This document shows positions 6,057 through 41,316 of a stretch of 64,000 nt of DNA, piece by piece (the stretch's first letter is position 1; every line of letters starts with the position of its first letter). The translations under genes and the position numbers were made by a program. Source of the DNA: Kappaphycus alvarezii (taxonomy: Eukaryota > Rhodophyta > Florideophyceae > Gigartinales > Solieriaceae). Under the pieces are notes generated by a model. The model had not been told where the DNA came from. It was given only the letters and a program-made list of their open reading frames with translations, and did not search any database. The stretch is taken from contig NADL03000051.1 in NCBI GenBank assembly GCA_002205965.3, forward strand, positions 470,444-534,443, written 5' to 3'.

Positions 6057-6103
6057 GGATAGATAGGATATTTCTTCCAAGAGTAAAACACCCAAACCTT
6101 TTC
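6057..6103 (+). mobile_element. Ultrashort interspersed insertion (subfamily A), 47 bp
   Basis: The insert carries cttccaagagtaaaacaccc and ends aaaccttttcc. It is flanked by cccttttctag (6046-6056) and ccctcttctag (6104-6114), an 11-bp target duplication with one mismatch. Copy B has the same insertion near 20540. Confidence 0.7.
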
Positions 6104-6252
6104 CCCTCTTCTAGCCCTATTGCAGTGTACCCCGGGTTTCATTTTACAACAATCCGGAGAAAGCTAATTTCAATAATTGCGTTTTCCATGAGATTTCCAC
6201 GCTTCAGCCCCTTTGCGTTGTATAGCCGACTAGGGTCTACATTTTTGAATTT

Positions 6253-6293
6253 GGGATATATCTTCCAAGAGTAAAACACCCAAACCTTTCCCC
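6253..6293 (+). mobile_element. Ultrashort interspersed insertion (subfamily A), 41 bp
   Basis: The 41-bp insert starts gggatatatcttcc and ends aaacctttcccc. It is flanked by a perfect 11-bp duplication tttttgaattt at 6242-6252 and 6294-6304. It shares its right end with the insertion at 6057, but its left end stops at a different point of the consensus. Confidence 0.8.
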
Positions 6294-6330
6294 TTTTTGA
6301 ATTTCAAAGGACTGTAAGCACCTACACCGT

Positions 6331-6396
6331 AACGCATTAGCCGCGTGGATATAACCGACCACATCTTCCATGCATTAAAATAACCCAAAAATTCCC
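6331..6396 (+). mobile_element. Ultrashort interspersed insertion (subfamily B), 66 bp, copy A only
   Basis: It is flanked by a 10-bp duplication cctacaccgt at 6321-6330 and 6397-6406. Copy B has the unoccupied site at about 20927-20936, so the insertion post-dates the segmental duplication or differs between its parents. The insert contains taaccgaccacatcttcc and ends caaaaattccc. Confidence 0.85.
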
Positions 6397-7466
6397 CCTA
6401 CACCGTTAGGTAGTTGTGTTATCAGCTATAGAACTTTGCAGCATGGCAATGTAGTAAAGGGTTCCTGGTTCCACCATGCCGACCACTTTGTACCAATTAT
6501 TTGATGCGCTTTGAAACATAGGCTAACCTATTTTTCAATCATTAAAATACCCCAATTTTCCCCCATGTAGCAAAGTATTGCGGAATGGAACTTCGCTTAA
6601 CGCCTGATATGGGCGGCAATAACACTTTGAGATCGCATCGCTGGTTTATCGGTTATTTCTATCCCCGTCATTGTTATATTGTGAACCCGTCCTAGCTTTA
6701 TACTGTACCACGTATTATTCTCGACTTGAAATACTGCTTATACATCGAGTTAGGCAAGTGGGCTAACTATTTGAAAAAAACTCCCCTTTTCCGATCACAC
6801 CGTGAAACTCCGCCGGTTCCTAAGTTGTTGTCGAGAACTGAAGGATGGGTATATTGCACGCTGTATCAAACTTTTCAGCCACAGCATGCCCTTAAGGCAA
6901 AATGAGCCGTACTCTCGTGCAGAGGAGAGTATCTAAAGGGGTTCTGTGTGTGCACAGTATGTTCTTTGAAACGTGATCACATCCGCGTTATGTATTTTCT
7001 CTACTTGCATACCCAGAACTTGCATTTTGACTCATGTTTCGTTAAGCCATACACCACAAATTTTTCATGACAAAAAGATACAACACTGCAAAATTTATGG
7101 ATGCTTCGTAAATTATAAAACACTATTATCTCTGCAGTTACATAGAGGCATCGACCCGGCACCGTCAATCGACTAGTGTCTCTCTTAGGTTCGTCACAAT
7201 CGCCTCACTCGATGAATTCTGGAATAGGCTAGCAAAATTTAGATCTCTCACACGAAGAAAGCTGCGCAACCCGGTCTAGCCCCTAAACGAATCTTTACCA
7301 TCTTCACTTGGGCTCAACGAAAGGTGCAGAACAAGAAGTAGAATTATTTTGAACAGTCGTTCGCGATTCATACTTCATGTAGAGTGCATGCAGTAAGAGG
7401 GACAAGGAGGAAACAATTATGGCACTCTCTGAAATATCCATGTGGTACGAGCATTCATTAAAGCAA

Positions 7467-7510
7467 CCGACCACTTCTTCCATGCACTAAAATAACCCAA
7501 AAATTTCCCC
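7467..7510 (+). mobile_element. Ultrashort interspersed insertion (subfamily B), 44 bp
   Basis: The insert runs from ccgaccacttcttcc to aaaaatttcccc. Flanks are attaaagcaa and tttaaagcaa, a 10-bp duplication with one mismatch. The same insertion is in copy B at 22302-22345, so it predates the duplication. Confidence 0.7.
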
Positions 7511-7779
7511 TTTAAAGCAATCCCACGATATGATTTGCAATATTTTCTTCACCCACGGGCAATCAGGATTCCTTGGTTCTAAACTGATCGCTCTCATCAG
7601 GAAAATAAGGCTCGTTACGATTGTGATCTAGACTTGTATATTATGAAAAGGGGAAAATTTGGGGCATTTTAGTGTGTGGAAGATGTCGTCGGTTCTATCC
7701 ACGCAGCTGGAAGGCGGGTAATACATATTATTTTCTCCTACCCTGATATACGTTGAGTTCCCAATTTTCGAGTGCTGTA

Positions 7780-7830
7780 CAGTACTGTACTGTACTGCAC
7801 TGTACGTAATTAACTGTACAATTAATTGTA
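7780..7830. repeat. GTAC-rich palindromic microsatellite
   Basis: A run of gtactgtact units is followed by mirror-like gtacgtaattaactgtac. It recurs in copy B near 22610 and, inverted and altered, near 31745-31770. Every GTAC is its own complement, so the tract can fold on either strand. Confidence 0.75.
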
Positions 7831-7843
7831 CTATTTTCAGAAG

Positions 7844-7888
7844 AACTGAAATGGGGGGTTAATTTACTGTGGTAGATATGTGGGTTGG
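7844..7888 (+). mobile_element. Ultrashort interspersed insertion (subfamily C), 45 bp
   Basis: It is flanked by a perfect 11-bp duplication attttcagaag at 7833-7843 and 7889-7899. Copy B has it too, but the inverted third copy has a single attttcagaag near 31712-31722, the empty site. The insert includes ggttaatttactgtggtag. Confidence 0.85.
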
Positions 7889-8624
7889 ATTTTCAGAAGA
7901 CAGCAATGCCGCCATTCTTACAAATCCTTTACATTTGTTTACACCTATGCATGAAATTTGGAAAGGTAGCCAATCTTATACAATGCCGTTGAAGAAACTA
8001 CCATTGTAGCAAGCGCCTCTTCGCTCTGCAGGAAGGGATGTCTGAGCTACGGCAAGACAATTGTGATGCACCGATAGTTGCAGTGATGGAACCACAATGT
8101 GCACCAGGCAGACAGAAAATGTAAAGCATACTGCAGTGTAGCTTGACATGGCACGCTTGACATGGTGAAAGCCTGGTGTAGCATCTTCCTTACTAACATT
8201 GAGAAACCGTAGCTATGACCAACCCGACCAGACTTTGATGCACCTGTACAGCCCAAACATTTGCTTTTTTTCTTGCTGCTTCAATCTTATAATTCGGAGG
8301 ATAGTTTTCAGAAATCTCAGTCAGCATGAACCTGCTCCACGAAAATATCCTACAATGCTGTACATACCAATGCTTCTGGTCACACCAACAAGCATACTGG
8401 CGTAGAAGGCGTACGTGGGATTCCTGTTCTGGGAATTCAAATTCTCACGCTCGCCAGCTAACGTAGGTAAAGGGCCCCTTTTAATCCAATGTAAAGTATT
8501 TAACCGAGACATGCCCCCAGCATACCAAACCCTTCGAAGTCACCATCTCACCTTCAGCTACAAAAATCCCCCATTCCCGCAATCTACTCAGACAAAGAGG
8601 TTACTTATTTCTTAAGAGCCGCAA

Positions 8625-9431
8625 ATGCAGTTTATGAAGACTATCCTAGTTGTTGCCCTCCTGGTGACATCTTGCCTTGCTGCCAAAATCCCCTCAGGAC
8701 GAAAGATTGACATCATTCCATGCCAGGAAGATAGCTTGGGGATCCCATGCCACGGCAAGCAACAGAGAAAGCTTGTCCGGATCGAGCAGGATTCACTTGC
8801 TGTCCCCCTCGAACGTCAATCGGAGGACGTAAACTTTGCCGTCAACAGAAGTTCCAGTGGGTTTTCGAGGGTGACTGGCGTAGGCGTGCGAGTGCAGCGC
8901 GGCGTCTCTGCATCTCTGACATACAATATTACGGTCAATGCAATTTCATCGGAAGAGATCTCTAGTCTAACTGAGTCCATCCTGACAAGTCTGAATGAGA
9001 CCGAGTTGGAGATCCTCAGTAGCTTGTTGGCGACCTACAACAACGGGCTCTCAGTCCCCTTCTTGCAGCTTCTTGGCATCAACCTTGGGGGTGTCACGAA
9101 CGCCCAGAGCCAGCTTACCGCTTCTATGTTCATCGAAAGGTACAATGAGCTTTCAGAATCGGTTGAGGAGCTCCTTGAGAGCACGGAAGAGGCCAGAGTT
9201 GCTGTCGCTGGTAGTCTCACTGCCACAGGTGTGTCCTTCACTCCTGTGGAAGGTTTCGTTTTCGTCAGGACTGCCAGAATGTTCTTCAATGATGGAAGTT
9301 CTAGGTTGGTTGTGACATCTGATCCCGCAGAGACGGAGGCGGCAACCCTTGACGGTGATGTCCTTCCGTCCTCAGACAGGAACCTCTTCACAGGTTCTCC
9401 CGGTGACGTACCTCTCACTATTTTTGGTTAA
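8625..9431 (+). CDS. Secreted protein of unknown function, copy A
   Basis: A 268-residue protein with a clear N-terminal signal peptide (basic start, then TILVVALLVTSCLAA, cleavage probably after residue 19-20). The mature part has two cysteines (PCQEDSLGIPC), possible N-glycosylation sites at NRS, NIT and NET, and a Ser/Glu-rich helical middle (about residues 105-190). It has no membrane segment after the signal and no family I recognise. The start at 8625 has context gcaaATGc; a second Met lies three codons on. AATAAA lies 129 bases after the stop. The copy at 23459 differs at two residues. It is the only intact, duplicated, non-transposon gene here. It might also belong to an element, but nothing shows that. 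Confidence 0.85.
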   Translation: MQFMKTILVVALLVTSCLAAKIPSGRKIDIIPCQEDSLGIPCHGKQQRKLVRIEQDSLAVPLERQSEDVNFAVNRSSSGFSRVTGVGVRVQRGVSASLTYNITVNAISSEEISSLTESILTSLNETELEILSSLLATYNNGLSVPFLQLLGINLGGVTNAQSQLTASMFIERYNELSESVEELLESTEEARVAVAGSLTATGVSFTPVEGFVFVRTARMFFNDGSSRLVVTSDPAETEAATLDGDVLPSSDRNLFTGSPGDVPLTIFG

Positions 9432-9559
9432 TCGAATATCTTAATCGCTCTACTCGGATCGCTGTGCCAAACCCTTGCTGATGAAAATCAGCGTTACAAA
9501 AGATCAAATCAGAACTTTCCCAGAATTTAGCTGTCTGACCTGAATATCGTATCAAGTAC

Positions 9560-9565
9560 AATAAA
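9560..9565 (+). terminator. Polyadenylation signal AATAAA of the secreted gene
   Basis: AATAAA lies 129 bases after the stop codon and is conserved at the same spacing in the second copy (24395-24400). It supports a polyadenylated eukaryotic transcript. Confidence 0.55.
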
Positions 9566-10995
9566 TCCTCCTTGACTGCATCACTGAAAACTACCAATGG
9601 GTTTGCTTCAAAGTGAGCTGTACGATCTTAGAGTAACATGGCATAAAAGTAGGCAGTTGACAAATTTCGGCCCCTACAGCCCCTCAAATAGGGGAAAAAA
9701 GGGACAGTATCTTTATTGAAATGTAAGGATTGTCTGGAACCCATTTGGAATCGTAAACTGCATGTCACATCAAACACATCTAGTGACTCATGTCTGAAAG
9801 CAACGATATTTTACTTGACTTAATATAATTCCGTAACATTATGGCAATACGGTATGAAACAAAAATTCTTGGTTTGGAATTTGCTGAGGTTAGGGTTCAA
9901 TTACGAAGCGCGCAGCGAATCAGTTGCAAGACATCCGCTCAGTTCATGAGGCAGTAAAAATCAGCAGCGTGTCGGAACAGAACTAATACTGCAGTTGCTG
10001 CTTACTTCAGCTAAAATATTGAATTCAATGTTCAGGGAAATCATTTCTTCTTTGTCGTTTGTTTGTCAAGTTGTCACAGATTCGGATAGCCCATTGCCAC
10101 CGGGGAAGACTTGGCTTTTCGTAGTACTATGTAGATGAGGAGAGCTGTGGTACGTGGTGGGTCGAGAGTACTCTGATTTTCAGGCATAAGAAAGGCGGGA
10201 CCAAAGAAAGAGCACTTCTTCTGAGAAATGCCTACATGTACCCATGATAGGGTGAAAAGGCGCTAAAATAAAGGATACCACTAACTAACCGAGGTGAGAA
10301 TCATTGCGAGCGACTAAGTGCTACGGTAGACGCTAAGGCGGTGGGAAGTGCTACGGTAGACCTGTCTGCCAGCTTGCTTTATACTCTATCTTGTGTGTGA
10401 CTTAGTTTGGTGAGCGTCCCACTAGGGCTTGCTGGCCCCCCAATTACTCCTATCATTGTATGCGAACAGCCCCTTATATAGAGTTTTCAACCCTCACAAT
10501 TCTTAGCACCTATACAGTACCTATATGCCCTATTGGCACCGCTACAGTACGGTGCAAAGCATCCCTCTAAAAATAATTGAAAATAAAATTGTACTTACAA
10601 GGACAGCGCAACCAGCGCAGCATGCCCAAATTCTCATTTACAACATACCCATTAAAACATTTAGCCGCAGCAGATTTTATTTCCCTCGTGATATAAAAGT
10701 TCTCTCTCTGATATACCAGATCCCCCGAGTCTGCCATCTTTAGCTGTCTATCGGCTTCATAACACATTATAGCCCCTCTGACAAGGAAATGAACAATCGT
10801 TTTATCTTTTTTTCTATGCCAAGCAGTACATTTTCAAAAGTTCTTGGAAGAACCTTCGAATTGGCAAGAGGAAAATTGCGCAGGACACTAACAAAAAAAT
10901 AGGACCAAGAACTTAATCGTAGCTCCAGAGATATAGAATTTATACAATTGGAGGAGAAATAAACGAACACTTACAACTACCAATATTACTGAAAA

Positions 10996-13900
10996 AATTA
11001 CCCGATCGGGCGACTTATTAACAGCCTGGACCAGGTAACCACTCCCATCTTTTTGGTCAACCATTTTTCGCATGAAAAATAGTACCAAATCCGTTTTAAG
11101 TTCACAGCAGAATAAATGACTCTGAAAGAGAAAGATAAGTTCACATTTTAATCCTACGACCAGTTTCCATACTCGTAACTCATTTACTTTAAATTTCATT
11201 ACGATAAAAATGGGTATATCTGAAGGGCTCACCGACCAACAGAAGGATACCCTCCCTAGTCATTTTCCACGAGATGACTCTGAAAGAAATATTCCTGAAT
11301 TTACCAGGAAGTCTAAGACCCATGCACGTATCTTTATTTCATTGCATGGGTGGAAAATGAAGAAAACCTTCGCCAGAACGAAAGAAATAACCGATTCCCA
11401 GCTTCAGCATTTATGCCGTCGCGCTTCTACTCAAAATTAAAGCGCAAAGGAGCCTAAAAGCACTGTGCAAAAATTAATATCTGTACCTCACATTTAGTAG
11501 ATTCTGTTATGTAGCGATCATTTGGTGTAACAAAAGGAGAAAATCCCCCAGCGGCGATGATAATGAACAAAAGGCCAATTTGTAAGTGGATCAAAGAAAT
11601 CTTTCCCTGGTGCGTATCTTAGTGGAAAGATGCTATTTTTACCGTCGAGAAAAAGTTTAAAATTAGATTGCATTGACTTTTTTTCCTTTCATTACACTAC
11701 ATAAGAAGGGAGATCCAATATTTTTCATCTCGTGAGTAGAGGAGGTATACGATGTGGACTGAGCTGAATTACTGTACTAGAGTGGTTCTCATATTGTTTT
11801 ATTTTCTTATAAACTTGATTATTAGCTTTACCGCACGATTATGAAAAGATAATTCTTTCTTTTGCTGAAGAATACCTGGACGGGACCTATGTTGTACAGC
11901 ATGGCAGTTTTGAGATGCATGAGAGCAATTATGCAAGGTATTATTGGAAGGATGTGAATTTGAAAATTAATCATATCGTAATCGGTCTATATCAATCACT
12001 TTCGCCTATTTTGCTTTCATAATTCCATCAAAATGGTCACATTCACGGTTTCACGCACCGCAATCCCTCGTGACAATCATATACGTTTTTCAATCTTTCT
12101 TGTATCTACCACTTTATCTGGTACATGAACTTTTGACTTTGTGTTATGAATGAACTTCAGAGGCACGAAATTCAGTCATCTAGCACCTACAGTTTACCTG
12201 TTTCACCCTCCGTCCCAGATTACGGTAAACTCAACCTTTTTGACGAAGCAACATGCTTAAATTCAAAAAGGAAATGAAATTTATGTACTGCGTTGCCTGC
12301 CAAATCTACATATTTGTGCCTAATTGAAACCTCTGGGACATTGTAGCGTGTGACGTATAGAGCGACAGAAGAAAAGAGTGAGATATAGAAACAATTGGGC
12401 CAAGTTGACCCAACCAATTCAGTACAACTCCTCAAAACCTCCCCCTTTCCCCACATACCATCAATTCTAGACATGGGAAATTATTCTAATTTAATGTAGG
12501 AGCACTTCCAGAAAATTCCTAGGAATATGAGCTGAAAATTACCACTGAAGTTACCGTCGAGCTTAAATACTCTCTCTACCGCAGTACACTGGCCTAACGA
12601 AAAGGTTTGGGCATTTCTCTCTTGGAAGATATATTAAATCTATGTGGAGCCAATAAGAAAAAATGGATCTATGAACTTTCTATAAGGGATATTTTGCAGG
12701 AAAATAATTAATTCGAAATGCTGGTAGAATCTATTAGGATCAAATGAGATATTGGTACCGTCATTTTTGAAATTTGTCGTTCGGTTACAGTGGATGTGCA
12801 GTACAAGCGCAAAAAATAGAGCCCTTGGATGCCACAAATATGCTGGTTCTCGTCACAAGCGCACGTCTTATGCAACTAAAAGCCCTGAAGGCGCTACGGG
12901 GGTATAGAGTAGGTCGATTTAGAGCTTAACGGGATGGTTACACCGTGTCTAGTGTTCCGCAATACCGACCTAGCGTCAAGGAAGGTAAGATTAGCCTTTT
13001 TGTGAGTGGTAAACTGGTCGGTTGTTTGATGTTTACTCTTCATTCATGTCAACTCCCGCCACCCTTAGCTGATATTATCGGTTTACCCTCATAAAGCGGA
13101 TCGATTTAATGCGAGACGGCGCGCATGATTTCAATTTTCTCAATTGATTTTGACTCAATCGTGTAAATAAAATTGAATGCTAGATCCGATTCCCTACTCA
13201 TGACTTCCTCAGTTTGAAATTTCTACCCAATTTTACAACCATGATACAAGCTTGTTTACAAAAGCTTGCATAATCTTTTTCTTAAATTAGACACGCTCTC
13301 TCAATTTCTGAGATATTTTCGAAAAAATTATAGCTATAATTCAATAATTGTAGAAGTTACATATGAAACGCAATTTGGGGGAAAACTATCCAGACCAAAC
13401 AGGTTCTTTCAATTTGGGGCAAATGATGGTGACGTCGTCGTGTGCTACTTCAAAAGGGGGAATCTAAACGAAGGTTGCAGAAAAGCAAAGGAGATAACAG
13501 AAAAATATCTGCGCCTCCATGACCCTGTGACTACATCAAAGGGTCCAGGCAGGCAACTCTGAATAGATTCTCGTTTCCTTTCAAATTTGTTTGAACATAA
13601 TAATTCTATTTTTATTCACAATTATGGGGATATATGAGGAGGAGCAGATCTTTGTTACAGAGAACGAAGACTCTAAGATTTTTCCCTTCACACAAAAGGC
13701 CACATACTGGACAACTAGACATATAAGAGGAGCTAAGAGCCGGTCACACTCGGTTGCAAGAGCTGTACTGCGCTTATTGGAAAGAAATTCAGAGAATTGC
13801 TCCACTCCACTTCGAAAGTTCGCCTGGATGCAGCTGTATGTATCTATTACTATGGCATAAATATAAATACTACGTTGTTCGCAAAGTTATCAGTAGTAAG

Positions 13901-14700: not shown

Positions 14701-15386
14701 GTTGATATCGAACTTTAAATAGGGCGACGTCTTCGAAAAGTTTCACGGCCTTAGGCGAAATAAAAAATTAGAGGCAATGCGGCAGCTTTAAATTTGAACA
14801 CAACCGGGGCTATAATGAAAAAATCTGCTTGATAAAATATCGGATATGGTTTTGGATGATGAAGCGGATCACGAGTCGAAAGATTTATTTTTTGAAAAAG
14901 GAGGATCAAAATCCTCAAACATAAACTGTAAAATGGAAGTGTACAGGAAATTTGGTTTCGTAGGGAAGAAGTCGTTTCAGGATCTCGTTTTTGAAAAAAA
15001 GAGTGGGAAGAGTTGTTTTGAAAAAATCAGAGCTCAGGGATGAAAAAGACAGAAGTTTGTTGAGAGAACTGCTTTCCTACAGAAAGGACCGGGTTTCTAA
15101 CAACAAATATACTTTAATAAATACTGATAACAATCATTGTTAGCTTTGGAGACCTTCCGGCGAGTATGATCTGTACTAAGGCAAAGAAAATTTGCAGCGA
15201 CGGTTTAGTCCAGTGCAGAATTTCTTACGGTTTCTTCCATGCTATTCTTGGGAGGCGCCTACTTGATTCTCTCTGTAGGACACAAAACTGCCCATTCCCT
15301 TATCGGGAAGTAACAGTGTACCATTTGTAATAATGAGACAATTTGGGTGTTTTCATGATTGAAAAATAGGCTTGCCTTGTAATAAG

Positions 15387-15449
15387 GTGGAAAGGTTTGG
15401 GTGTTTTACTCTTGGAAGACATATCCGATCTATCCCATGGGTTTCCAGT
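15387..15449 (-). mobile_element. Ultrashort interspersed insertion (subfamily A), 63 bp
   Basis: It is flanked by a perfect 11-bp duplication cttgtaataag at 15376-15386 and 15450-15460. The insert reads gtggaaaggtttgggtg at its fixed end and stops at catgggtttccagt, further along the consensus than the 41-bp copy at 6253. Confidence 0.85.
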
Positions 15450-16094
15450 CTTGTAATAAGTAAAGCACCAAAATACCCCCTTTGTCATGATCTGATTCGA
15501 ACTGTTCAAAATGAAATCATATGTCATGTGGGTGTAGAAGTAGGACTTCTTAAACGTGCAACCCCTTTTTTAAAAGGCTTGAAATCAGCTTTCATTACAT
15601 GACATTGGAGAATGTAAGTTTAATTAGCAAAACGTTCGCCAATCGTCTTGTCCCTTCCTATGCCAAAGAGAAGAGCCTTATCCCACTCACAGGTCTCAAA
15701 GCAGCCCACGCGGAGAAGAACTGCAAATATCAAGGATTTCTTGCTGAATTGCGGGGAAAGGTCAACTCCCGTCCCCATCTCAACCCTCAGAGGCTGGCGT
15801 CCGGCGACGTTCGCCGTAGTAAAGGGACTTGTTAGAACTGCCGCCAGCCGTGCGATGGAACAGTTTGCGAAGATGCAAGGTATTCTTTTACAGCGACACT
15901 CCGCATTAGCAGTAACATGCAATGGGTTTTGTTTGCTTGCTGGCCTCCCCGCTATTTGCTGATAGAGTGAAGTGTCATTACAGCCTAGCGCAACCTTTCC
16001 CGTGCATGCTCGCTACCACCATACGACTTGACTGGGTATCAGCCAGATTATCTGTTACAGTGAACAGACCTCCTGTGCCCTCCTCTCCATTTTC

Positions 16095-17058
16095 GTGGTT
16101 TATGCTCTTGTGTCAGTATCACTACCATACTCTGATCCTTGTACGACATATGCACAAGTTTGTATTCCTACGGAATCTTTCTACCAAAAGGGTAAGGATA
16201 GGTCGAACGTAAAATTATTGTCCTTGATATCCTCCGGCTTCGTGCTAGTGTCTGGTCATGTGCTTGCCGCGGTACGTACATGTCCTCCTCTTCGTGGAAA
16301 GCCGCTCTGGCTTTCCGTTTCGGCAGCGCGAAATTCACTGGATCTAATCGCTGGTCGGTCTGCTCCCCGGCGCTCGGCCGACATCTCACCAGTCTTAGAT
16401 CTAAGCGGCCAACACGTGTTAACCTGCAAATACGAAGACGATATGACTCGTCGACATCATGTCCTCCGCAACGTTCTTTTCCGCTTCTGTAAGGAAGTTG
16501 GGATTGTCGCCCTCGTCGAGCATCCGCTCCTCTTCCAGGTTCCCAACTCGTCTGGGCATTCGGGGTTCCCCGCGTTACGAATGGACATTTACCTTCCCGC
16601 GGCATATGGGCTTCACAGTAGTGATATCGCCGTCGACGTTACTGTTGCCCACCCCTCCGCACGCCGCTACATCTCGCCAAGTACGGTCACCGCAGGCGCT
16701 GCCGCGACACTCGCCGAGCGCGAGAAAAATCGTCGTTACGGAACTTACTGCAAACAAAACGATATCCTCCTCTCCCACGTCGGGATTGATATCTATGGCG
16801 CCTTGGGCGACGACGGCAAGGGTTTTTTCAGCCGCCTTGCTTCCTTCGCTGCTTCCCGTCGGTTCCTCCCCTCAACAGGAGCTCCGCGACTTCGTTACCC
16901 GTTTTGCGTTTAGTCTCCAAGTGATGCAGGCGCGACAGGTTTCCACCAGCCGCCCGCATTCGTATTTAATTTCTGAATACCCTCCGAACGCTTCTGTGCA
17001 ACACTTTACAGCTCGTAAAGATTTACCACCACGTGCTGACCGCTCCGTTCGCGGTTAA
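16095..17058 (+). pseudogene. Retroelement C-terminal Cys/His motif and endonuclease-like domain, copy 1
   Basis: In frame, residues around 16400-16450 read GQHVLTCKYEDDMTRRHHVL, resembling the G-D-H-x-L-x-C...RH motif found after the RT domain in some non-LTR-like elements. After it come a conserved Glu (VEHPLL), RMDIYLP, AVDVTVAHP and LAEREKNRRYGTYC. This E...D...DVTV...K pattern suggests a PD-(D/E)XK restriction-like endonuclease. It ends with GIDIYGALGDDGKGFFSRLA, and the C-terminus continues in another frame (QELRDFVTRFAFSLQVMQAR) to 17058. The RT itself is not found upstream. I read it as a 5'-truncated retroelement remnant; the clade is uncertain. Confidence 0.6.
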
Positions 17059-17307: not shown

Positions 17308-17480
17308 TGTAATACAGGAAATGGTCCTCCCTCCATGTAATACAGGAAATGGTCCTCCCTCCATGTAATACAGGAAATGGTCCTCCCTCCATGTAATACA
17401 GGAAATGTATGTAATACAGGAAATGGTCCTCCCTCATGTAATACAGGAAATGGTCCTCCCTTCATGTAATCAGGAATCCT
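17308..17480 (+). repeat. 28-bp minisatellite at the LTR edge
   Basis: The unit tgtaatacaggaaatggtcc plus tccctcca is repeated about six times with shortened units near 17400-17480. Equivalent arrays lie at the same edge of the LTRs at 36170-36278 and 43620-43733, with different unit numbers and deletions. Confidence 0.9.
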
Positions 17481-17750: not shown

Positions 17751-17771
17751 CCCCTTTATTCCAAGTTCCAA

Positions 17772-18320
17772 ATGTCCCCGATCATTTTACTCATCACCCC
17801 TCCCCCCAAAACACCCTACATTGCCTCCCATTCCCCAACGTCTATCAGAATGAACAACCTTCGCCCCATCAACGGCCTAGCCCTAATGAATAATGGGCCA
17901 ACAGACTACGACGACTACTTCAGGAGGATGGACCGTGAGCGTGTTCGGGAGTGGGTTCGTCGGCACTTCTTGGAGGAGGCGGAGGAGGAGGAGTCAGAGG
18001 GGACTGAGTCGGACGTGGAGGGATCCGAGGATGAGGAAGACTTTGTAGCTCCGTGGGAACCGATGGTGTATAATCGTGGGGAAGTTGCTGTGGGGGATGG
18101 AGGGGATAGTGAGGGCGTGATCGTCATCTCGGATTCTTCGGATGGGGTTGGCGCGGAGGCTGAGGGTCGCGAGGAAGGGTTGGAGGATCTTGATATGTCT
18201 GATGAAGCCATTTATCATTCTGAGCCGTTCGAGGGAATTTGTAGGGATTGCATTGAGAGTATGGATATTTTGGAGGAGTTATTTGGTTCTGATCTTGAGG
18301 ATAACGATTGTGAGGAGTAG
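17772..18320 (+). CDS. LTR-encoded acidic protein (intact copy)
   Basis: A 182-residue ORF wholly inside an LTR, in the sense direction of the Gypsy element. A Met at 17850 would give 156 residues. After a Pro-rich start it has a charged amphipathic segment (DYDDYFRRMDRERVREWVRR), a Glu/Asp/Ser-rich middle with VIVISDSSDG, which resembles a SUMO-interacting motif beside acidic residues, and a conserved end (FEGICRDCIESMDILEELFG). It has no membrane segment. The LTRs at 34885 and 42323 have the same ORF with indels. Diverged relatives at 14444 and 33213 keep N- and C-terminal residues respectively. I recognise no family. Transcriptional or nuclear roles are guesses. Confidence 0.6.
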   Translation: MSPIILLITPPPKTPYIASHSPTSIRMNNLRPINGLALMNNGPTDYDDYFRRMDRERVREWVRRHFLEEAEEEESEGTESDVEGSEDEEDFVAPWEPMVYNRGEVAVGDGGDSEGVIVISDSSDGVGAEAEGREEGLEDLDMSDEAIYHSEPFEGICRDCIESMDILEELFGSDLEDNDCEE

Positions 18321-20650
18321 ATACAGATATTTTCCTTGATAATATCTTCCCTCTGGCCAATCACATCCACAAGATGCCCTTTTATGCCTTTTATGGTATT
18401 TAGTATGTTTGATTGAGACTTTAGGATTAGCCGAAAAGTCTATATAAGCTGAGTAAAGTGCTTCCTCCTTGAGAGGTCAAGCAAGTTGGCAGACAACTTC
18501 AGGTCAAGCTCCGAGTAGTAGGAAGTTGAGAGTCAACTTCAGACCCAAGAAAACTTTTTCCTAAGCTGGTCGCAGAGCATCAGTGGTAGACCCTGCCCCT
18601 TTTATACTTGCTTGTAGCCCTCTCAAAATCTCTCCCATATACACACCTTTTTATTTGTTCAACTATACCACGGTAGCACTTTTGTCGCTTGCAACACCTC
18701 CTTCTTGGGGTGGTTGGTTCTGAATATCTCTTCTCCCGACGATTTACCCATACTACAGCCCCCATTCCGCGCGCTACAATCGTTCCGCAGTCTTCGGTGT
18801 CACCGCTATTCTTTCTCAAGCTGAAGCTGCCAAGAACGATATATCCACGCCATTTGCGATGACCTTGACATGGATTTCTACCCGATGGGTTTCGATATCT
18901 ACGGCTCTGTAGGTCCTGGGATCGAGGCTGGGTTGCATGGCATTTCGCAGTATATCGACTCCCGGAAAGGAACGAGTTCTGTTGCCGAACGCCAACGCCT
19001 GTTACTCGTTCTCAGTTCCTTGGCCCGACAACGTACTGCGATTGCTATCAATCGCAGGAAGCTACACCGTCCTAATCCGTTATTCTTTAGTCCTGATATG
19101 TTGATGCGTTAGTGAAAGTGTCTCTCCCTCTCTCTTGATCTCCTGTACTGTACTTTGCAGTTGAAGAGTGGTGGGGAAAGGTTAGGGTGTTTTTGCTTTT
19201 GGTAGATATAATCTATCCATTCAGTTGAAGAGTGTCTGAGCAGAAAGTGGCACTGAGTTTTAATATTTTGTCGTGTTCTGCCGAGCTCCTCTTCAACTGT
19301 GGCCACAGAGATGCTACAAAGCTTTTATCAGCTTATTAGAGTCACGAAAGAACTGAAGAACAAAGAAACTCAAGCACTCTTTTGATAAGCTTAAAATAAA
19401 CGTCGTTGAACAAAAGGATAACTATATATGTTTGCCTATCTTTTGGTCTCGCATATGTTTAGACTGCCTATTTGAGAGAATTTCCAACTGGAATTTCTCG
19501 CTGGGACATCGACGTTGGAATTTCGATTACTTCTGTGTTACATCGGATTTGCCAATGCCAATTTTTCTCAGCATTTCGGTGATCTCCAGGAGTGGGTTGA
19601 TGTCTAAATGGATAAGGTAAAAGGGCGCTCCGCGGATACCCGAGATCATATGAATCAATCTAACACATATTGGAAATATCCGGTACAGTAATACATTTTT
19701 TTCACGATTGCACACCATTACGACTTGCCACTTAAAATTGGCACTATTGGAGCATAACACAAGTATAGCTGTGAGTCCTGCTCCCGTGATGCTGCTATAT
19801 TAGATAGTCACAGAGGTAGTAACACTTGAGCGCAATATGCATGTCAAACATACGTGGACGTGGCCAATGGCTCTGTCATAAAATCCGAAGCATTGGGGAT
19901 TTTCTGGAGGGGAGGTGGTACTGTATCACAACTGTTGCGGTAAACGACAATGGACTGGGAAAAAGTAGCAGAAACGGGCGGTGTTTCGGAACTGGCGGCT
20001 TTGCTGGAAGAGGAAAGTGTCAGAGTGTCTATGTTCATTAACGACACGGCCGTTAAAATCCGAACGGAAGCCGTGTGTTAAGGTTCGATAATCCCGGGCC
20101 ATGTGGATAAAAGAAGAAATTCTGGGTTCCAGTGCGAATGAAGAGATAAGTCGAGCTTTGCAAGAGTGCAATCTAACGATATTGGAAACATAGTTTTACG
20201 ACCGCCCATGAATTTCAGCTAGATGAAAATGGCTATTCGCCTAGTCAGCCGGCAAGCAGGGTTGGACTTTACCAACCACGTGGCGTGCCTCTGATAGAGG
20301 ATAAGCCTCACCTTTTAATAATGATCTGGAGCATGGTTGGTAAATGACTATGCTGTCGAAGAAGACATGAACCTGTTGTGGAGCACTCCAAATTGCAAGA
20401 ACAGGCAAATTTTACAGCAACTGAAATGGATTTAAACCACAGTTTGAATCTGTATTTATGTTTATTACGTACCGTGTTTATCCTTCAGAACTGAACTTCT
20501 CTTTTCTAGCCCTTTTCTATCCCTTTTCTAGGGATAGATCGGATATATCTTCCAAGAGTAAAACATCCAAACCTTTTCCCCTCTTCTAGCCCTATTGCAT
20601 TGTACCCCAGGTTTCATTTTACAGCAATACGGAGAAAGCTAATTTCAATA

Positions 20651-20764
20651 TTGTGAAATTGGGGTTAATTTACTGTGGTAGATATGTAGGTTGGTACCCA
20701 GTAAATTTGTACCGGAGCGTAGATACCGTATATTGGCCAAGCCATTTGCGAAACCGTACAACGC
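20651..20764 (+). mobile_element. Ultrashort interspersed insertion (subfamily C), 114 bp, copy B only
   Basis: It is flanked by a perfect 10-bp duplication aatttcaata at 20641-20650 and 20765-20774; copy A has the single, empty site at 6166-6175. The insert starts ttgtgaaattggggtt and shares ttactgtggtagatatgt with the 45-bp insertion at 7844. Confidence 0.85.
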
Positions 20765-21600
20765 AATTTCAATAATTGCTAATTGCGTTTTCCATGAGAT
20801 TTCCACGCTTCAGCCCCTTTGCGTTGTATAACTGACTAGGGTCTACATTTTTGAATTTGGGATATATCTTCCAAGAGAAAAAAACCCAAACCTTTCCCCT
20901 TTTTGAATTTCAAAGGACTGTAAGCACCTACACCGTTAGGTAGTTGTGTTATCAGCTATAGAACTTTACAGCATGCAATGTAGTAAAGGGTTCCTGGTTC
21001 CACCATGCCGACCACTTTGTACCAATTATTTGATGCGCTTTGAAACATTGGCTAACCTATTTTTCAATCATTAAAATACCCCAATTTTCCCCCATGTAGT
21101 AAAGATTTGCCGAATGGAACTTCGCTCAACGCTTGATATGGGCGGCAATAACACTTTGAGATCGCATCGCTGGTTTATCGGTTATTTCTATCCCCGTCAT
21201 TGTTATATTGTGAACCCGTCCTGGCCTTATACTGTACCACGTATTATTCTCGACTTGAAATACTGCTTATACATCGCGGTAGGCAAGTGGGCTAACTATT
21301 TGAAAAAAAACTCCCCTTTTCCGATAACATCGTGTAACTCCGCCGGTTCCTAAGTTATTGTCGAAAACTGAAGGATGGGTACCTATATTGCATGCTGTAT
21401 CAAACGTTTCAGCCACAGCATGCCCTTGAGGCAAAATGAGTCGTACTCTCGTGCAGAGGAGAGTGTCTAAAGGGGTTCTGTGTGTGCACAGTACGTTCTT
21501 TCAAACGTGACCACATCCGCGTTATGTATTTTCTCTACTTGCATACCCAGAACTTGCATTTTGACTCATGTTTCGTTAAGCCATACACCACAAATTTTTC

Positions 21601-21656
21601 CGCGTGGATATAACCGACCACATCTTCCATGCATTAAAATAACCCAAAAATTCCCC
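21601..21656 (+). mobile_element. Ultrashort interspersed insertion (subfamily B), 56 bp, copy B only
   Basis: It is flanked by a perfect 10-bp duplication caaatttttc at 21591-21600 and 21657-21666. Copy A has the empty site at 7057-7066. The sequence is nearly the same as the last 56 bp of the insertion at 6331, but the left end is shorter. Confidence 0.87.
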
Positions 21657-21917
21657 CAAATTTTTCATGACAAAAAGATACAACACTGCAAAATTTATGG
21701 ATGCTTCGGAAATTATAAAACACTATTATCTCTGCAGTTACATAGAGGCATCGACCCGGCACCTTCAATCGACTAGTGTCTCTCTTAGGTTCGTCACGCC
21801 TCACTCGATGAGTTCTGGAATAGGCTAGCAAAATTTAGATCTCTCACACGAAGAAAACTGCGCATCCTGGTTTAGCCCCTGAACGAATCTTTACCATCTT
21901 CACTTGGGCTCAACAAA

Positions 21918-22144
21918 AGGGGGAATTTTTGGGTTATTTTAATGCATGGAAGATGTGGTCGGTTATATCCACGCGGCTAATGCGTAATGTGGGATAAGTC
22001 GTCGCTGATGGGTAACACTACAGTACAGTACATGACCTTCCTTACAGAGCCGGCTCAATGCCGGCGAGCAGGCATGCCGCGTTGGACATGACGGCCGCAG
22101 CAGCGTGCCTTTGGGTAAGCACCGCTCTAACCATCCCATAGGTC
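21918..22144 (-). mobile_element. Long copy of the ultrashort-insertion family, copy B only
   Basis: Copy A passes directly from ggctcaac to gaaaggtgcag near 7315. Copy B carries about 227 extra bases beginning ggggaatttttgggtt, the fixed end of subfamily B. It continues past the truncation points of the short copies into ccgcgttggacatgacggcc and a cagcagcgtgcc box, shared with 51270-51330 and 52260-52310. It is probably close to a full-length member. A clear target duplication is not visible. Confidence 0.65.
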
Positions 22145-22301
22145 TCCATCAACGAAAGGTGCAGAACAAGAAGTAGAATTATTTTGAACAGTCGTTCGCG
22201 ATTCATACTTCATGTAGAGTGCATGCAGTAAGAGGGACAAGGAGGAAACAATTATGGCACTCTCTGAAATATCCATGTGGTACGAGCATTTATTAAAGCA
22301 A

Positions 22302-22345
22302 CCGACCATATCTTCCATGCACTAAAATAACCCAAAAATTTCCCC
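22302..22345 (+). mobile_element. Ultrashort interspersed insertion (subfamily B), 44 bp
   Basis: Copy B counterpart of the insertion at 7467-7510, with flanks attaaagcaa and tttaaagcaa. The shared position shows it predates the segmental duplication. Confidence 0.7.
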
Positions 22346-23458
22346 TTTAAAGCAATCCCACGATATGATTTGCAATATTTTCTTCACCCACGGGCAATCA
22401 GGATTCCTTGGTTCTAAACTGATCGCTCTCATCAGGAAAATAAGGCTCGTTACGATTGTGATCTAGACTTGTATATTATGAAAAGGGGAAAATTTGGGGC
22501 ATTTTAGTGTGTGGAAGATGTCGTCGGTTCTATCCACGCAGCTGGAAGGCGGGTAATACATATTATTTTCTCCTACCCTGATATACGTTGAGTTCCCAAT
22601 TTTCGAGTGCTGTACAGTACTGTACTGTACTGCACTGTACGTAATTAACTGTACAATTAATTGTACTATTTTCAGAAGAACTGAAATGGGGGGTTAATTT
22701 ACTGTGGTAGATATGTGGGTTGGATTTTCAGAAGACAGCAATGCCGCCATTCTTACAAATCCTTTACATTTGTTACACCTATGCATGAAATTTGGAAAGG
22801 TAGCCAATCTTATACAATGCCGTTGAAGGAACTACCATTGTAGCAAGCGCCTCTTCGCTCTGCAGGAAGGGATGTCTGAGCTACGGCAAGACAATTGTGA
22901 TGCACCGATAGTTGCAGTGATGGAACCACAATGTGCACCAGGCAGACAGAAAATGTAAAGCATACTGCAGTGTAGCTTGACATGGCACGCTTGACATGGT
23001 GAAAGCCTGGTGTAGCATCTTCCTTACTAACATTGAGAAACCGTAGCTATGACCAACCCGACCAGACTTTGATGCACCTGTACAGCCCAAACATTTGCTT
23101 TTTCCTTGCTGCTTCAATCTTATAATTCGAAGGATAGTTTTCAGAAAGCTCAGTCAGCATGAACCTGCTCCACGAAAATATCCTACAATGCTGTACATAC
23201 CAATGCTTCTGGTCACACCAACAAGCATACTGACGTAGAAGGCGTACGTGGGATTCCTGATCTGGGAATTCAAATTCTCACGCTCGCCAGCTAACGTAGG
23301 TAAAGGGCCCCTTTATTAATTAATATGTAATATTTAACCGAGTCATGCCCCCAGCATACCGAACCCTTCGAAGTCACCACCTCACCTTCAGCTACAAAAA
23401 TTCCCCATTCCCGCAATCTACTCAGACAAAGAAGTTACTCATTTCTTAACAGCCGAAA

Positions 23459-24265
23459 ATGCATTTTATGAAGACTATCCTAGTTGTTGCCCTCCTGGTG
23501 ACATCTTGCCTTGCTGCCAAAATCCCCTCAGGAGGAAAGATTGACATCATTCCATGCCAGGAAGATAGCTTGGGGATCCCATGCCACGGCAAGCAACAGA
23601 GAAAGCTTGTCCGGATCGAGCAGGATTCACTTGCTGTCCCCCTCGAACGTCAGTCGGAGGACGTAAACTTTGCCGTCAACAGAAGTTCCAGTGGGTTTTC
23701 GAGGGTGACTGGCGTAGGCGTGCGAGTGCAGCGCGGCGTCTCTGCATCTCTGACATACAATATTACGGTCAATGCAATTTCATCGGAAGAGATCTCTAGT
23801 CTAACTGAGTCCATCCTGACAAGTCTGAACGAGACCGAGTTGGAGATCCTCAGTAGCTTGTTGGCGACCTACAACAACGGGCTCTCAGTCCCCTTCTTGC
23901 AGCTTCTTGGCATCAACCTTGGGGGTGTCACGAACGCCCAGAGCCAGCTCACCGCTTCTATGTTCATCGAAAGGTACAATGAGCTTTCAGAATCGGTTGA
24001 GGAGCTCCTTGAGAGCACGGAAGAGGCCAGAGTTGCTGTCGCTGGTAGTCTCACTGCCACAGGTGTGTCCTTCACTCCTGTGGAAGGTTTCGTTTTCGTC
24101 AGGACTGCCAGAATGTTCTTCAATGATGGAAGTTCTAGGTTGGTTGTGACATCTGATCCCGCAGAGACGGAGGCGGCAACCCTTGACGGTGATGTCCTTC
24201 CGTCCTCAGACAGGAACCTCTTCACAGGTTCTCCCGGTGACGTACCTCTCACTATTTTTGGTTAA
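23459..24265 (+). CDS. Secreted protein of unknown function, copy B
   Basis: A 268-residue protein identical to the product at 8625 except for residues 2 (Gln to His) and 26 (Arg to Gly). At nucleotide level I count five differences in 807 bases: two changing an amino acid and three silent. It has the same signal peptide, cysteine pair and glycosylation sites, and AATAAA at 24395-24400. The flanks show more changes, including several insertions, so the coding frame is better preserved than its surroundings. That fits either recent duplication with selection or gene conversion. Function is unknown. Confidence 0.85.
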   Translation: MHFMKTILVVALLVTSCLAAKIPSGGKIDIIPCQEDSLGIPCHGKQQRKLVRIEQDSLAVPLERQSEDVNFAVNRSSSGFSRVTGVGVRVQRGVSASLTYNITVNAISSEEISSLTESILTSLNETELEILSSLLATYNNGLSVPFLQLLGINLGGVTNAQSQLTASMFIERYNELSESVEELLESTEEARVAVAGSLTATGVSFTPVEGFVFVRTARMFFNDGSSRLVVTSDPAETEAATLDGDVLPSSDRNLFTGSPGDVPLTIFG

Positions 24266-24820
24266 TCGAATATCTTAATCGCTCTACTCGGATCGCTGTG
24301 CCAAACCCTTGCTGATGAAAATCAGCGTTACAAAGAGATCAAGTCAGAACTTTCCCAGAATTTAGCTGTCTGACCTGAATATCGTATCAAGTACAATAAA
24401 TCCTCCTTGACTGCATCACTGAAAGCTACCAATGGATTTGGTTCAAAGTGAGCTGTACGATATTAGAGTAACATGGCATCAAAGTAGGCAGTTGACAAAT
24501 TTCGGCCCCTACAGCCCCTCAAATAGGGGAAAAATGGGACGGTATCTTTATTCTCCTTATAATAATGATTGGATCAGGTATTAGTTTTAGAGGGGGTAGT
24601 ACGAGGGCTGTATTAGGGAAAATGTTGAAAAAGTAGACAAAATCGCAGGTAGCGCACCAAATTATGCAGGTTGCAGTGCACAGTAAATGTACGAGAAAGT
24701 ACCCAAAATCGCACATTCTGTATTATGCCCTGCAACTCCCGCCAACTTTGAGCCCTTTTGAGTACGACCAGCCAGAAAAACTGTCAAAAATCCACAAAAT
24801 GAGAGCCAATAGAAAAATTC

Positions 24821-24854
24821 AGCATCATCATCATCATCAGCAGCAGCAGCAGCA
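24821..24854. repeat. (CAT)n(CAG)n compound microsatellite
   Basis: Four CAT units followed by five or six CAG units. The flanks have no supported ORF. Confidence 0.9.
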
Positions 24855-25640: not shown

Positions 25641-25964
25641 AAAACAGTTGCGAGCCAGTGGATGGATACCGATGGTTGTTTGCAACTTATAAATGTAATA
25701 CAGAAGGCCCCTTATAGGATACCAAAGAAAGGAAAATGTATGATATCCGACTTCGAAGAAACAGCTGGAAGATGGTAAGAAATATAACGACTACTGGTTG
25801 GAACGAGTCGTTTCTCCACAACATTACCTAATTTCTGAATGAAGCTCCATAGCGCCACCTGACGCCCCCCCCAATGGACTCGTTGGCCCCCGAAATGACA
25901 AATTAGGGTAGCGTAATGGAATGCCTGAGGCCTCGCAACCTCCCTACCATCCTGTTATGTGGCT

Positions 25965-26120
25965 CATAGTGGTCGGTGTCCTCTGGTCACAAATTATGGT
26001 CCCGGGAGCCATGTTCAGTACTGTACATGGCCACAAATTTGGGATACGAGAGCCATGTACTGTACAGTACTGTGCATGACTGTGAGCCACAAATGGCGTT
26101 CACTGCACAACAGTACAGCA
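25965..26120. repeat. GTAC palindromes and ccacaaat repeats
   Basis: gtactgtacagtac near 26057 is a perfect 14-bp palindrome. gagccatgt, tcacaaat/ccacaaat and cagtactgtacatgg recur three or more times within 150 bases. No ORF crosses the region convincingly. Confidence 0.7.
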
Positions 26121-26460
26121 GAGACGCCTCAAAACAGGCGAACAGGGGGGTCTAAGGGCTACTTTTTATGTTTTACCAGGAATTTAGTAGCAATTGGTGC
26201 GTTTTAGTAATTTGGGAATCTCTATATAAAGGCTGGTCGACCGGGGTGTGAGCCTCGACCGACAACTATCAGCCAGCACCAAAAACCCCCAAGCCAAAAG
26301 CACCAAAACCCCCACAGCCAAAGCCAAACCCCCACACCCCAAACCCAAAAGCCAAACCGCCCCAAACCCAAACCCAAAAGCCAAACCACCCCAGAGCCCC
26401 AATACCAAAACCACCACCGACAAACGTTACTGTCCACCTCCTTGTTGTACTTTAGGCAGT

Positions 26461-26590
26461 GGTGTCCCTCGTGTCCTTGGACTTTCGGTGTGCATACCGA
26501 AGTTCAAGGGGAAAATACCCATTATACTGCAGGTGTCCCTTGTCCCTTTGGACTTTCGGTGCTCAGCTCGAAGTTCAAGGGGGCAATACC
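26461..26590 (+). repeat. Two tandem hairpin units
   Basis: Each unit has gtgtccct(c/t)gtccctt(t)ggac, then ctttcggt, a 4-8 base loop, accgaag or ctcgaag, and gttcaagg. Outer arms ccttggac/gttcaagg and inner arms ctttcggt/accgaag pair, giving a 14-16 bp stem. It lies just upstream of the LINE coding remains and of an (aaaaag)n tract, so it may belong to the element's 5' untranslated region. Confidence 0.7.
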
Positions 26591-26624
26591 CTCAGTGACT
26601 GCTAAAACTTAAACCCTGAGCTAA

Positions 26625-26656
26625 AGAAAAAGAAAAAGAAAAAGAAAAAGAAAAAA
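26625..26656. repeat. (AAAAAG)n microsatellite
   Basis: Five units of aaaaag between the hairpin pair and the LINE remains. Confidence 0.9.
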
Positions 26657-26676
26657 TTAGAAGCCCTCAAATAGAG

Positions 26677-28830
26677 GTGCGAATGAAAAAACAGAACCCC
26701 TTCCAGTGCTTAACAGAAAAGAGCACTATTAAATCCATTCACAATCTCCTCACCACCACCAACCCAGGCATCCAAAACGTCACAGAGACCCGTACCGACG
26801 CAGCGCTTTTATTGTGCCGAGTCTGGCCTCAGACAACCGTCTCACAGATCCCCCTACGCCACACAAGCATAAACTCACCCCCTCCGCGGCGGCGTTGCAG
26901 TCGCCGTAAGGCCTGGGCTCCGTGATATCACCCATCATATCTGCAACACCTACCATCCACCTACCAATTCAATCCCACAAATCCTCACACTCAAACTGAA
27001 CCCATCAACCCATGTCTCTGCAGCCTACGTCAGCCCGAAATTACCAGCACAATCGTTCGGGGCATTACTCAACGACTTCGTCCGCCATTCCCCACCGCAT
27101 GCAATCCTAAGCAGGAGACTTGAACGCTCGATCCCCCCTCTGGGATACGATAGCCAACCCAAGGGGACGCCCACTTGCGAGAGCAGTCCAGGACACACGA
27201 TTCAAGATATTCGCGTCTACCCAACCCTCATTCCACCCACGAGGGGCTCTAGGCTCAAGCAACCCAGATATCTTCGTTTTCTTTGACCACCTACACTGCG
27301 CCACCTACACAGACAGCTGGACCAGCTGCTCACATCACCAACCTGCAATAACGACGTCCACCAGCACCCTCCTGACCAACACTAAGACGACCCCAAGGAG
27401 GATAACGGAATCAATGCTCATCACCCCTACGATCCAGCAGGAAGCAGCGGAAACCTACAAACGCTCCCTGCCATTACTTATAGAAGCGCTCTCCAACTGC
27501 ACTGCGATAACCACCCCTGCCATGTACGATCGTGTCACACGAGCCATCACTGAACCGTGGCAAGAGATCGCAAACCGCCGACCGCGCCGATTCAAACCGT
27601 TCTGGACCCACTCATTGGATGGGCTAGCGGCTAAACGCAACAAGTCATATAAGAAACCAAAACGTACTGGAACATATGCGGGCTACCTCGAGTTCAACAG
27701 AATCCAGACCGTCGTCCGACAACAACTCCGAAGAGACAAACGATGGTTCCAAAAGCGAACCCTGCTCCGCCTCACAGACCTCCTCGACGAACAATTCACA
27801 AGGGCAGTAGCAACTGATCGACGGCGCGGACCGCCAGGAGGAAAGCAGACCAACAACGCAACGGACGCCAGCTCTCCCCTCGTGACTTCACTACCTACAT
27901 GGGCACCGCCCATTATCAGGAAAAACCCCCGATACAAATACAGAGCTTCACTCCCCCACCGGCGCTTGAACAACATTACTGTGTCGGTATACCCTTTTTG
28001 AGTTGATTGCGGTTGTCTGGAAAACCATGGGATAGACCGGATATATCTTCCAAGAGTAAAACACCTAAACCTTTTTCCTTGAACAACATATCCTCAACTA
28101 CATTTGCACCGCGCCACGTGGTAAAGCAGTAGGCAATGATGGGATACACATTGAGATGATGAAGACTGAGCCCGTTCTCCCTCGCTACGCTGCTGTACAC
28201 ATGGTGGACGACAATAGGCCGAACATTCCACTACCCCCAGAACTGGCCCACAGGCGCCCTGATTCCGGTCCACAAACGCGGGGACCAACAACCAGCGAAT
28301 TACCATACACTTTGCCTCTTATCGCACTGCCGGAAAGCCATCGAAGGTCTCGCCTCTTTCCTAGCCGACCACACAGACCTCCGCCTAATGCAATTTGGCT
28401 TCAAAGAAAAATAGGCCCCCTTCACGCCCTCATAGCCAAGGAAGCAGCCATAAGACAAGGGGACCGCTGGCTCCCTGCCCTGGATATGCTCAAGTCCTAT
28501 GACAGGGTCAACCGTCAACTGCTCTTATACGACTGCTGACGCATGCTCCCCTACAGGCTACGGACTCATGCTCCCCTACAGGGCTTCCGTACTGGGCTTG
28601 AGGGCTCCAAAGAGTGAGTATACTGTGCGCCATGCCCCGGACTACAAACGCACATCGAGGCCCGACAATTTTCGCTGTGGCTCCGATATCACTGCCAAGT
28701 CCCGCTGTTTGCTCTTAGCACACCATGCCAAAGAGCAAATTGCCCTCACACGCGGGACGTCCATGGTGACCACCTCCTCCACTGCCTGCACGGCCCACAC
28801 AGGAGCGTCCGTTACGATCGGCAAGTGAAT
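26677..28830 (+). pseudogene. LINE ORF2 remains: AP endonuclease, reverse transcriptase, Cys/His tail
   Basis: Three frames must be followed. The endonuclease shows ETRTDAALLL near 26790, GGVAVAVRPGLRD near 26890, and GDLNARSPLWDT near 27117, a typical APE-type motif, then SNPDIFVF. A middle part (27430-27960) lacks signature motifs. RT begins after a 101-bp insertion at 27977: PRGKAVGNDGIH, TGALIPVHKRGDQQPANYHT, SHCRKAIEGL, ALDMLKSYDRVN. The catalytic F/YADD box is missing, so an internal deletion is likely. Near 28770, DVHGDHLLHCLHGPHRSVRYD matches the Cys/His motif of the element at 16400. Frameshifts lie near 26885, 27115 and 28300. It is dead. Confidence 0.8.
27977..28077 (+). mobile_element. 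Ultrashort-family insertion (subfamily A), 101 bp, inside the LINE
   Basis: It is flanked by the 12-bp duplication cttgaacaacat at 27965-27976 and 28078-28089. It starts at tactgtgtcggtatacc and ends aaacctttttc. It is longer than the 41-63 bp copies but shares their fixed end, and matches 51143-51240 and 52330-52445. Confidence 0.87.
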
Positions 28831-28839
28831 TTTTTGGTC

Positions 28840-41288: not shown

Positions 41289-41316
41289 CCTTTGATCCTT
41301 CTATTTTGTAAGATTT

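Follow-up and report, generated by a model that had tools for sequence, protein, structure and literature searches.

A window of 64,000 nucleotides from the red alga Kappaphycus alvarezii (contig NADL03000051.1, positions 470,444 to 534,443) carries short insertions that have in common a TAAAAYAMCCCAAA..CCCC-type 3' end as well as direct repeats on both sides, and that group into families A to D, attributed here with differing strength to the 3' ends of long interspersed nuclear elements (LINEs). A tail profile seeded with 21 window copies returned 22 window matches that passed the inclusion threshold and consisted almost wholly of the seeds; these, together with four weaker matches that were retained, formed a working set of 26. 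Flanking repeats reached a score of 9 or more at 18 of the 26 tail matches, compared with 3.4% of 3,000 random positions, and a score of 7 or more at 23 (random positions, 20%), a statistic that counts both members of pairs lying in the duplicated 4.2-9.8 kb and 19.0-24.6 kb copies. At 12599, 28987-29007, and 51515 no usable flanking repeat was found. A chance origin of the repeats was ruled out by the random positions and by the shuffled flanks described below. All seven duplications listed in a first-pass annotation of the sequence were present at their positions, that at 7833/7889 being longer than given there (12 bp, TCTTCTGAAAAT, minus strand). The interval of 6057..28077 assigned to the insertions does contain the motif, which also occurs outside it at 4.3, 51.1, and 52.4 kb, and the proposed size range of 40-115 bp proved too narrow, since the longest window copies measure 228 bp (family B) and 237 bp (family A) and genome copies extend to at least 1.8 kb.

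Window positions 4200-9800 and 19000-24600 represent a segmental duplication, ~14.5-14.8 kb apart, with an identity of 93-99.7% per 300-bp block, edges excepted. Alignment of the two copies revealed four insertions with a tail that are confined to one of the two, which bears out the empty sites previously proposed for four insertions. The difference at 20649 amounts to 131 bp and was read as a 114 bp insertion, a 10 bp duplication, and 7 bp extra. One further long difference between the copies, 384 bp at 4996, had no tail match. Each copy of the segmental duplication also holds a 268-aa open reading frame (ORF), at 8625 and 23459, and that at 8625 had no Pfam match.

The long copies of families A (237 bp) and B (228 bp) open with coding sequences that are homologous to each other, LDTYGKVRGVLMQRHAAAAVMSNAACLMAGLKVAF in A and ETYGMVRAVLTQRHAAAAVMSNAACLLAGIEPAL in B, and that each run into a stop codon. 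In L031, a long B copy traced upstream, a 567-aa open frame runs from the reverse transcriptase (RT) palm to the C-terminus of the window B insertion, is identical to the 228-bp insertion at 35/35 C-terminal residues, and leaves 119 nt, counting the stop codon, up to the fixed end. RVT_1 was matched by two of the five members of the B ORF alignment (best E 2.8e-14), consistent with the encoded RT expected of a LINE. Motifs read by eye comprise a zinc-finger-like CPRPNC..HGDHLMHC..RRHD stretch and RPDI..DFFDVTF. The B ORF has three protein-database relatives, and a profile of the ORF plus four relatives matched the PDB entries 9nl3 and 9dou, both R2 retrotransposon chains (E 0.0015 and 0.002), with 8gh6 as a third chain at no better than E 0.23. 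The match spans the zinc and restriction-like endonuclease (RLE) region, the C-terminal combination characteristic of R2-type elements. Structure prediction of homolog P0002 gave a mean pLDDT of 31 and was not used. On sequence grounds, family B is firmly assigned to the 3' end of a LINE, comprising its last codons and a 3' untranslated region, with an R2-like C-terminal module. The homologous C-terminus makes a strong case for A as a LINE 3' end, and C and D are putative LINE 3' ends by tail similarity only.

The genome was searched across 336,021,096 bases in 884 contigs. The exact 32-nt B tail gave 474 matches (240 + 234), its reversed control none. With the 66-bp B insertion as query, 1,757 candidates were returned, of which scoring covered 40 and yielded 40 matches over the full length at 100% along with 3 partial matches. 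A nested series that begins at 66 bp and reaches ~1.3 kb is seen in 30 loci from this query, some of them being mutual duplicates. We read 100 of the 474 tail matches, taken in contig order (30 retrieved as loci, 56 via their coordinates, 11 retrieved before, and 3 lying in the window), and removed two as duplicates by their right flank, leaving 98 independent copies, among which old copies are under-counted because an exact 32-nt tail was required for selection. Homology length ranged from 32 to 1,500 nt (the reference limit), with a median of 75.5 and 63% of copies below 100 nt, and L031 shares 1,814 bp with another copy, placing the longest at no less than 1.8 kb. Such ragged lengths with one fixed end were the outcome that the first-pass annotation, in proposing a genome-wide tabulation, had tied to reverse transcription. 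The duplication test covered 95 copies, L070, L086, and L102 being left out as they ran to the end of the fetched stretch (482 nt, a lower bound), while L024, at 1,500 nt the full length of the reference, was kept. Exact duplications were found at 45/95 copies when a length of 8 bp or above was required (shuffled right flanks, 0.37%) and at 59/95 when 6 bp sufficed (5.1%). Duplications of 10-12 bp, as first described, do occur within a broader range of 9-14 bp among 30 insertions selected for duplications of at least 9 bp, and 7-16 bp in the wider B set. A 30-kb sample elsewhere in the genome held one tail, previously known, and the copies are probably unevenly distributed over the genome. The tail was not found in a viral-contig collection, which may leave out this genome.

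The 5' ends of the 98 copies were clustered. Three copies end at 32-42 nt from the fixed end, 22 at 43-49, 3 at 50-60, 30 at 61-80, 5 at 81-104, 8 at 105-125, 0 at 126-136, 10 at 137-146, 0 at 147-188, and 17 at 189 nt or more. Relative to a uniform spread, the 32-42 deficit (P 3.6e-4), the 43-49 excess (P 1.6e-4), the 50-60 gap (P 1.4e-5), and the 137-146 excess (P 1e-5) stood out, these P values being guides rather than tests since the bins were picked after inspecting the data. Of the B copies whose duplication reaches 8 bp (40 in all), 12 measure 41-50 nt; below the floor at ~43 nt lie three copies of 32, 35, and 35 nt, none with a duplication of 7 bp or more. When 261 nt of the B 3' end were folded (one sequence, no covariation), a GCCGGC hairpin was predicted spanning 140 to 124, and the 140-nt cluster coincides with its 5' base. 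A 5'-to-3' RNA decay enzyme would be expected to halt at the 5' base of a hairpin, unlike a reverse transcriptase, which arrives from the 3' side. The position of the cluster therefore hints, on the strength of this one predicted structure, that template RNA may be trimmed before copying. Tentatively, and with appreciable doubt, the ultra-short copies might be non-random, the LINE often integrating a discrete ~45-nt 3' RNA end that its protein would recognize and shield, either through RNA trimmed beforehand to this footprint and to the hairpin 5' base or through stalling where the enzyme has to release its own recognition sequence; the parent would then represent a new LINE lineage with two endonucleases. 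An improbable alternative is that a few truncated master copies were transcribed and copied, which would equally yield clusters of similar length without stops during copying. However, the ends of the 43-49 nt cluster are not identical, being spread over seven positions (2, 5, 3, 5, 3, 3, and 1 copies), and 41-46 bp insertions with duplications occur also in families A, C, and D.

Target sites showed a preferred motif. CA lies immediately 5' of the duplication in 20/30 selected insertions (manual count), in 11/16 loci checked later, and in 27/40 B copies whose duplication is no shorter than 8 bp, against a background of 6.8%; the 40-copy set contains those 16 loci and part of the 30, and the C at duplication position 1 is partly ambiguous with the C run of the tail itself. 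At 15325-15460, insertions of two families (A and D) sit side by side at the same site. Microhomology of 1-6 nt was seen at 10/24 reported 5' junctions of family A and B insertions and is indicative only, as differences from the reference led several other junctions to be scored with additional bases.

With a fixed 3' end, a ragged 5' end, and variable duplications, the insertions are therefore, almost certainly, 5'-truncated copies of LINEs (non-long-terminal-repeat retrotransposons) made by target-primed reverse transcription rather than two-ended DNA transposons, and the target motif, the empty sites, and the LINE ORF end in B accord with this origin. The first-pass annotation had favored the same mechanism, which now finds support in the variable duplication length and in nested copies that have one end in common and measure between ~43 nt and 1.8 kb or more, while the identity as LINE 3' ends and the clustered truncation points are additions to it. 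In this scheme, an endonuclease would nick the bottom strand at a preferred site, CA/CTTT-like on the top strand, and the exposed 3' end would prime reverse transcription from the 3' terminus of the LINE RNA (in B, ..TTAAAATAACCCAAAAATTCCCC); as the priming point, this terminus becomes the fixed end of the insertions. Copying would stop early, at 43-80 nt in 55/98 sampled copies, and joining of the cDNA to the far side of the staggered cut would generate the duplication. We infer the order of nick and priming, the endonuclease that acts, and the derivation of C and D from the same LINE group.

Short interspersed elements (SINEs), which combine their own RNA polymerase III promoter and 5' end with a borrowed LINE tail, would also account for a tail common to several families, and from the window alone the longest copies of 228 and 237 bp looked like full-length units. 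This explanation is nevertheless very unlikely, as longer B copies form a nested set reaching into the LINE ORF, A and B carry LINE-type coding sequence in their 5' parts instead of a polymerase III-type 5' end, and within the window neither an Rfam match at gathering scores nor a tRNA was found. For families C and D a LINE ORF was not found, and there a SINE is still conceivable. A candidate tRNA-like SINE head on the 228-bp B copy was rejected, the stretch being LINE ORF. Miniature DNA transposons mobilized by a DDE enzyme that cuts with a stagger of 10-11 bp, the alternative raised in the first-pass annotation, fit the centering of duplication lengths on 10-11 bp in the 30 selected insertions but are barely credible given one end that is ragged over at least 1.8 kb, duplications of such variable length (9-14 bp in that set, 7-16 bp in the B set), and the lack of the two fixed ends and constant duplication that mark such elements.

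The window also contains a relic of a LINE (26620-29007) with an endonuclease of apurinic type, matched by PF14529 at E 1.3e-4 and thus below the cut-off, and a zinc module 65% identical to the B ORF over 92 aa. Its endonuclease has at least 146 genome matches, pieces of one copy being counted apart (132 of 307 candidates scored). The one such place that was opened, L127 (1-5301), apparently has the same internal deletion as the window relic, and the relic type, with its long open endonuclease frame, is probably a multicopy deletion derivative. In both, the apurinic-type endonuclease occurs together with the zinc part of the RLE module, and no RLE core remains. The parent LINE may have encoded an N-terminal apurinic-type and a C-terminal R2-type restriction-like endonuclease. 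Tandem TTTACATTTAATGTAAAATACCCAAAC repeats at the 3' end of the relic (28900-29007) resemble the tail of the short insertions, and two units fold into a hairpin.

Several results weigh against the LINE interpretation. In the B ORF itself, RVT_1 scored E 0.0019, below the Pfam cut-off, and the single ORF searched against the PDB with phmmer gave nothing significant (best R2 chain, E 0.51). The endonuclease piece of the relic had no PDB match with phmmer, and Pfam found no RT in its RT-like stretch, a motif reading by eye. No intact full-length LINE was recovered among the five long B copies traced upstream (L031, L032, and L124-L126), which cover a small part of the genome, although an element can be classed as a LINE in the absence of such a copy. 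Finally, copies lacking flanking duplications had been named at the outset as evidence to the contrary, and some were found: an exact duplication of at least 8 bp is absent in 50/95 testable copies and one of at least 6 bp in 36/95, for which age, deletions, or other joins may account.

Table 1. Short insertions, LINE sequences, and related features, in window coordinates
Feature	Position	Strand	Duplication and remarks
Family B LINE 3' end, 66 bp	6331..6396	+	CCTACACCGT 6321-6330 / 6397-6406; empty site near 20927
Family B, 56 bp	21601..21656	+	CAAATTTTTC 21591-21600 / 21657-21666; empty site near 7057
Family B, 228 bp	21921..22148	-	CCTTTYGTTGA (1 mismatch); LINE ORF C-terminus ETYGMVRAVLTQRHAAAAVMSNAACLLAGIEPAL; empty site near 7314
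Family B, 45 bp	7467..7511	+	TTAAAGCAA; second copy 22302-22346
Diverged family B, ~80 bp	7645..7724	-	Weak, 7 bp; second copy 22480-22559
Family A, 41 bp	6253..6293	+	TTTTTGAATTT; second copy 20859-20899
Family A, ~50 bp match	6056..6106	+	Uncertain (TTCTAGCCCT 6029/6109); second copy 20531-20581
Family A-like, 50 bp	4313..4362	-	ACACTCTTCAACTG; second copy 19171-19221
Family A, 63 bp	15387..15449	-	CTTATTACAAG; family D insertion adjoins, same site
Family D, 43 bp	15334..15376	-	TTATTACAA; adjoins family A insertion
Family A, 101 bp	27977..28077	+	CTTGAACAACAT; inside LINE relic
Family A, 237 bp	51135..51371	-	GATTTAATTACA; ORF C-terminus LALDTYGKVRGVLMQRHAAAAVMSNAACLMAGLKVAF (frame read by eye apart from the last 24 residues)
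Family A, ~192 bp	52254..52445	+	Weak, 7 bp, AAGCAAG
Family C, 44 bp	7845..7888	-	TCTTCTGAAAAT; second copy 22680-22723
Family C, 114 bp	20651..20764	-	TATTGAAATT; empty site near 6174
Family D, 105 bp	20989..21093	+	ATGTAGTAAAG; second copy 6460-6564
Insertions present in only one duplicated copy	6321-6396, 20649, 21591, 21910-22148		
Old copy E	5638..5850 (5' limit approximate)	-	Looked for, none found; C-terminus VRLILYQRHATWLVKSNPACRL, tail ATAATTTCCCC
LINE relic	26620..29007	+	Endonuclease, RT-like N-terminal half, C-terminal zinc module, tandem TTTACATTTAATGTAAAATACCCAAAC at 3' end; middle missing
LINE C-terminus fragment	15624..15962	+	49% identity over 67 aa to family B LINE ORF
Probable C-terminal module of another LINE	16032..16913	+	No Pfam match; one protein-database relative (P0001, E 3.9e-4)

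Elsewhere in the window, pieces of a polyphosphate kinase gene lie at 49676-50920 and 61464-64000. The ORF at 49676 combines the C-terminal domain of PP_kinase with a NUDIX domain. This C-terminal kinase stretch is found again near 63.5 kb, and the N-terminal piece of the kinase had 0 matches in a protein search. A 28-bp tandem repeat, TGTAATACAGGAAATGGTCCTCCCTCCA, occupies 17308-17480. An ORF for an acidic protein (MSPIILLIT..EEAEEEESEGTESDVEGSEDEEDF) is repeated at 17772-18320 and 35301-36009, on both strands, and is possibly another repeat family. Pol pieces resembling those of long-terminal-repeat retrotransposons were read by eye at 270-2722, 39033-41901, and 45629-49166, of which Pfam firmly supported only 39033-39674 (RVT_1, E 1.8e-22), the match at 270-827 being weak.

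LINEs truncated at the 5' end are textbook elements. The kind of element described here is thus already known, and what is unusual is that copies are typically very short, with a floor at ~43 nt and 5' ends that cluster. A description of these insertions was not found in the literature searched, from which their absence from print does not follow. With hundreds of very short LINE insertions that end in the same tail and are truncated at sharply defined hot spots, the genome offers a natural dataset on the stopping of target-primed reverse transcription, given that where and why copying stops is hard to see when truncations are spread over kilobases. A floor near 43 nt would reveal the small amount of RNA that suffices for this LINE. 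If real, a LINE with both an apurinic-type and an R2-type endonuclease bears on endonuclease exchange among LINEs. Insertions this short, in our view, likely escape repeat annotation and are taken for ordinary indels.

Like LINEs in general, the elements have an RT-type ORF, a fixed 3' end, 5' truncation, and variable target-site duplications. A 2013 review gives a span of 100-1,000 bp for truncated LINE members (PMC3747384), whereas here the median is near 75 nt, 63% of the 98 copies are shorter than 100 nt, and truncation points are clustered. With R2 and other RLE LINEs they share a C-terminal zinc finger and a PD-(D/E)xK-like module, as seen in the profile matches to 9nl3 and 9dou. Unlike R2, which inserts into one specific target gene, the sites here are dispersed, with only a short CA/CTTT-like preference. 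Dualen has been reported to encode both endonucleases (PMC4640811). The window relic, and again L127, resemble it in joining an apurinic-type endonuclease to the zinc part of the C-terminal module, yet no single copy was seen with both catalytic domains. For SINE/LINE pairs, the 2013 review describes stringent 3' recognition, a shared tail, and stem-loops (PMC3747384). Compared with those stem-loops, five representative terminal strings of 41-43 nt from this genome fold weakly or not at all. The tail conserved across divergent families fits the sequence-specific RNA recognition outlined there (PMC3747384), although families A and B, unlike the SINE members of such pairs, are pieces of the LINE.

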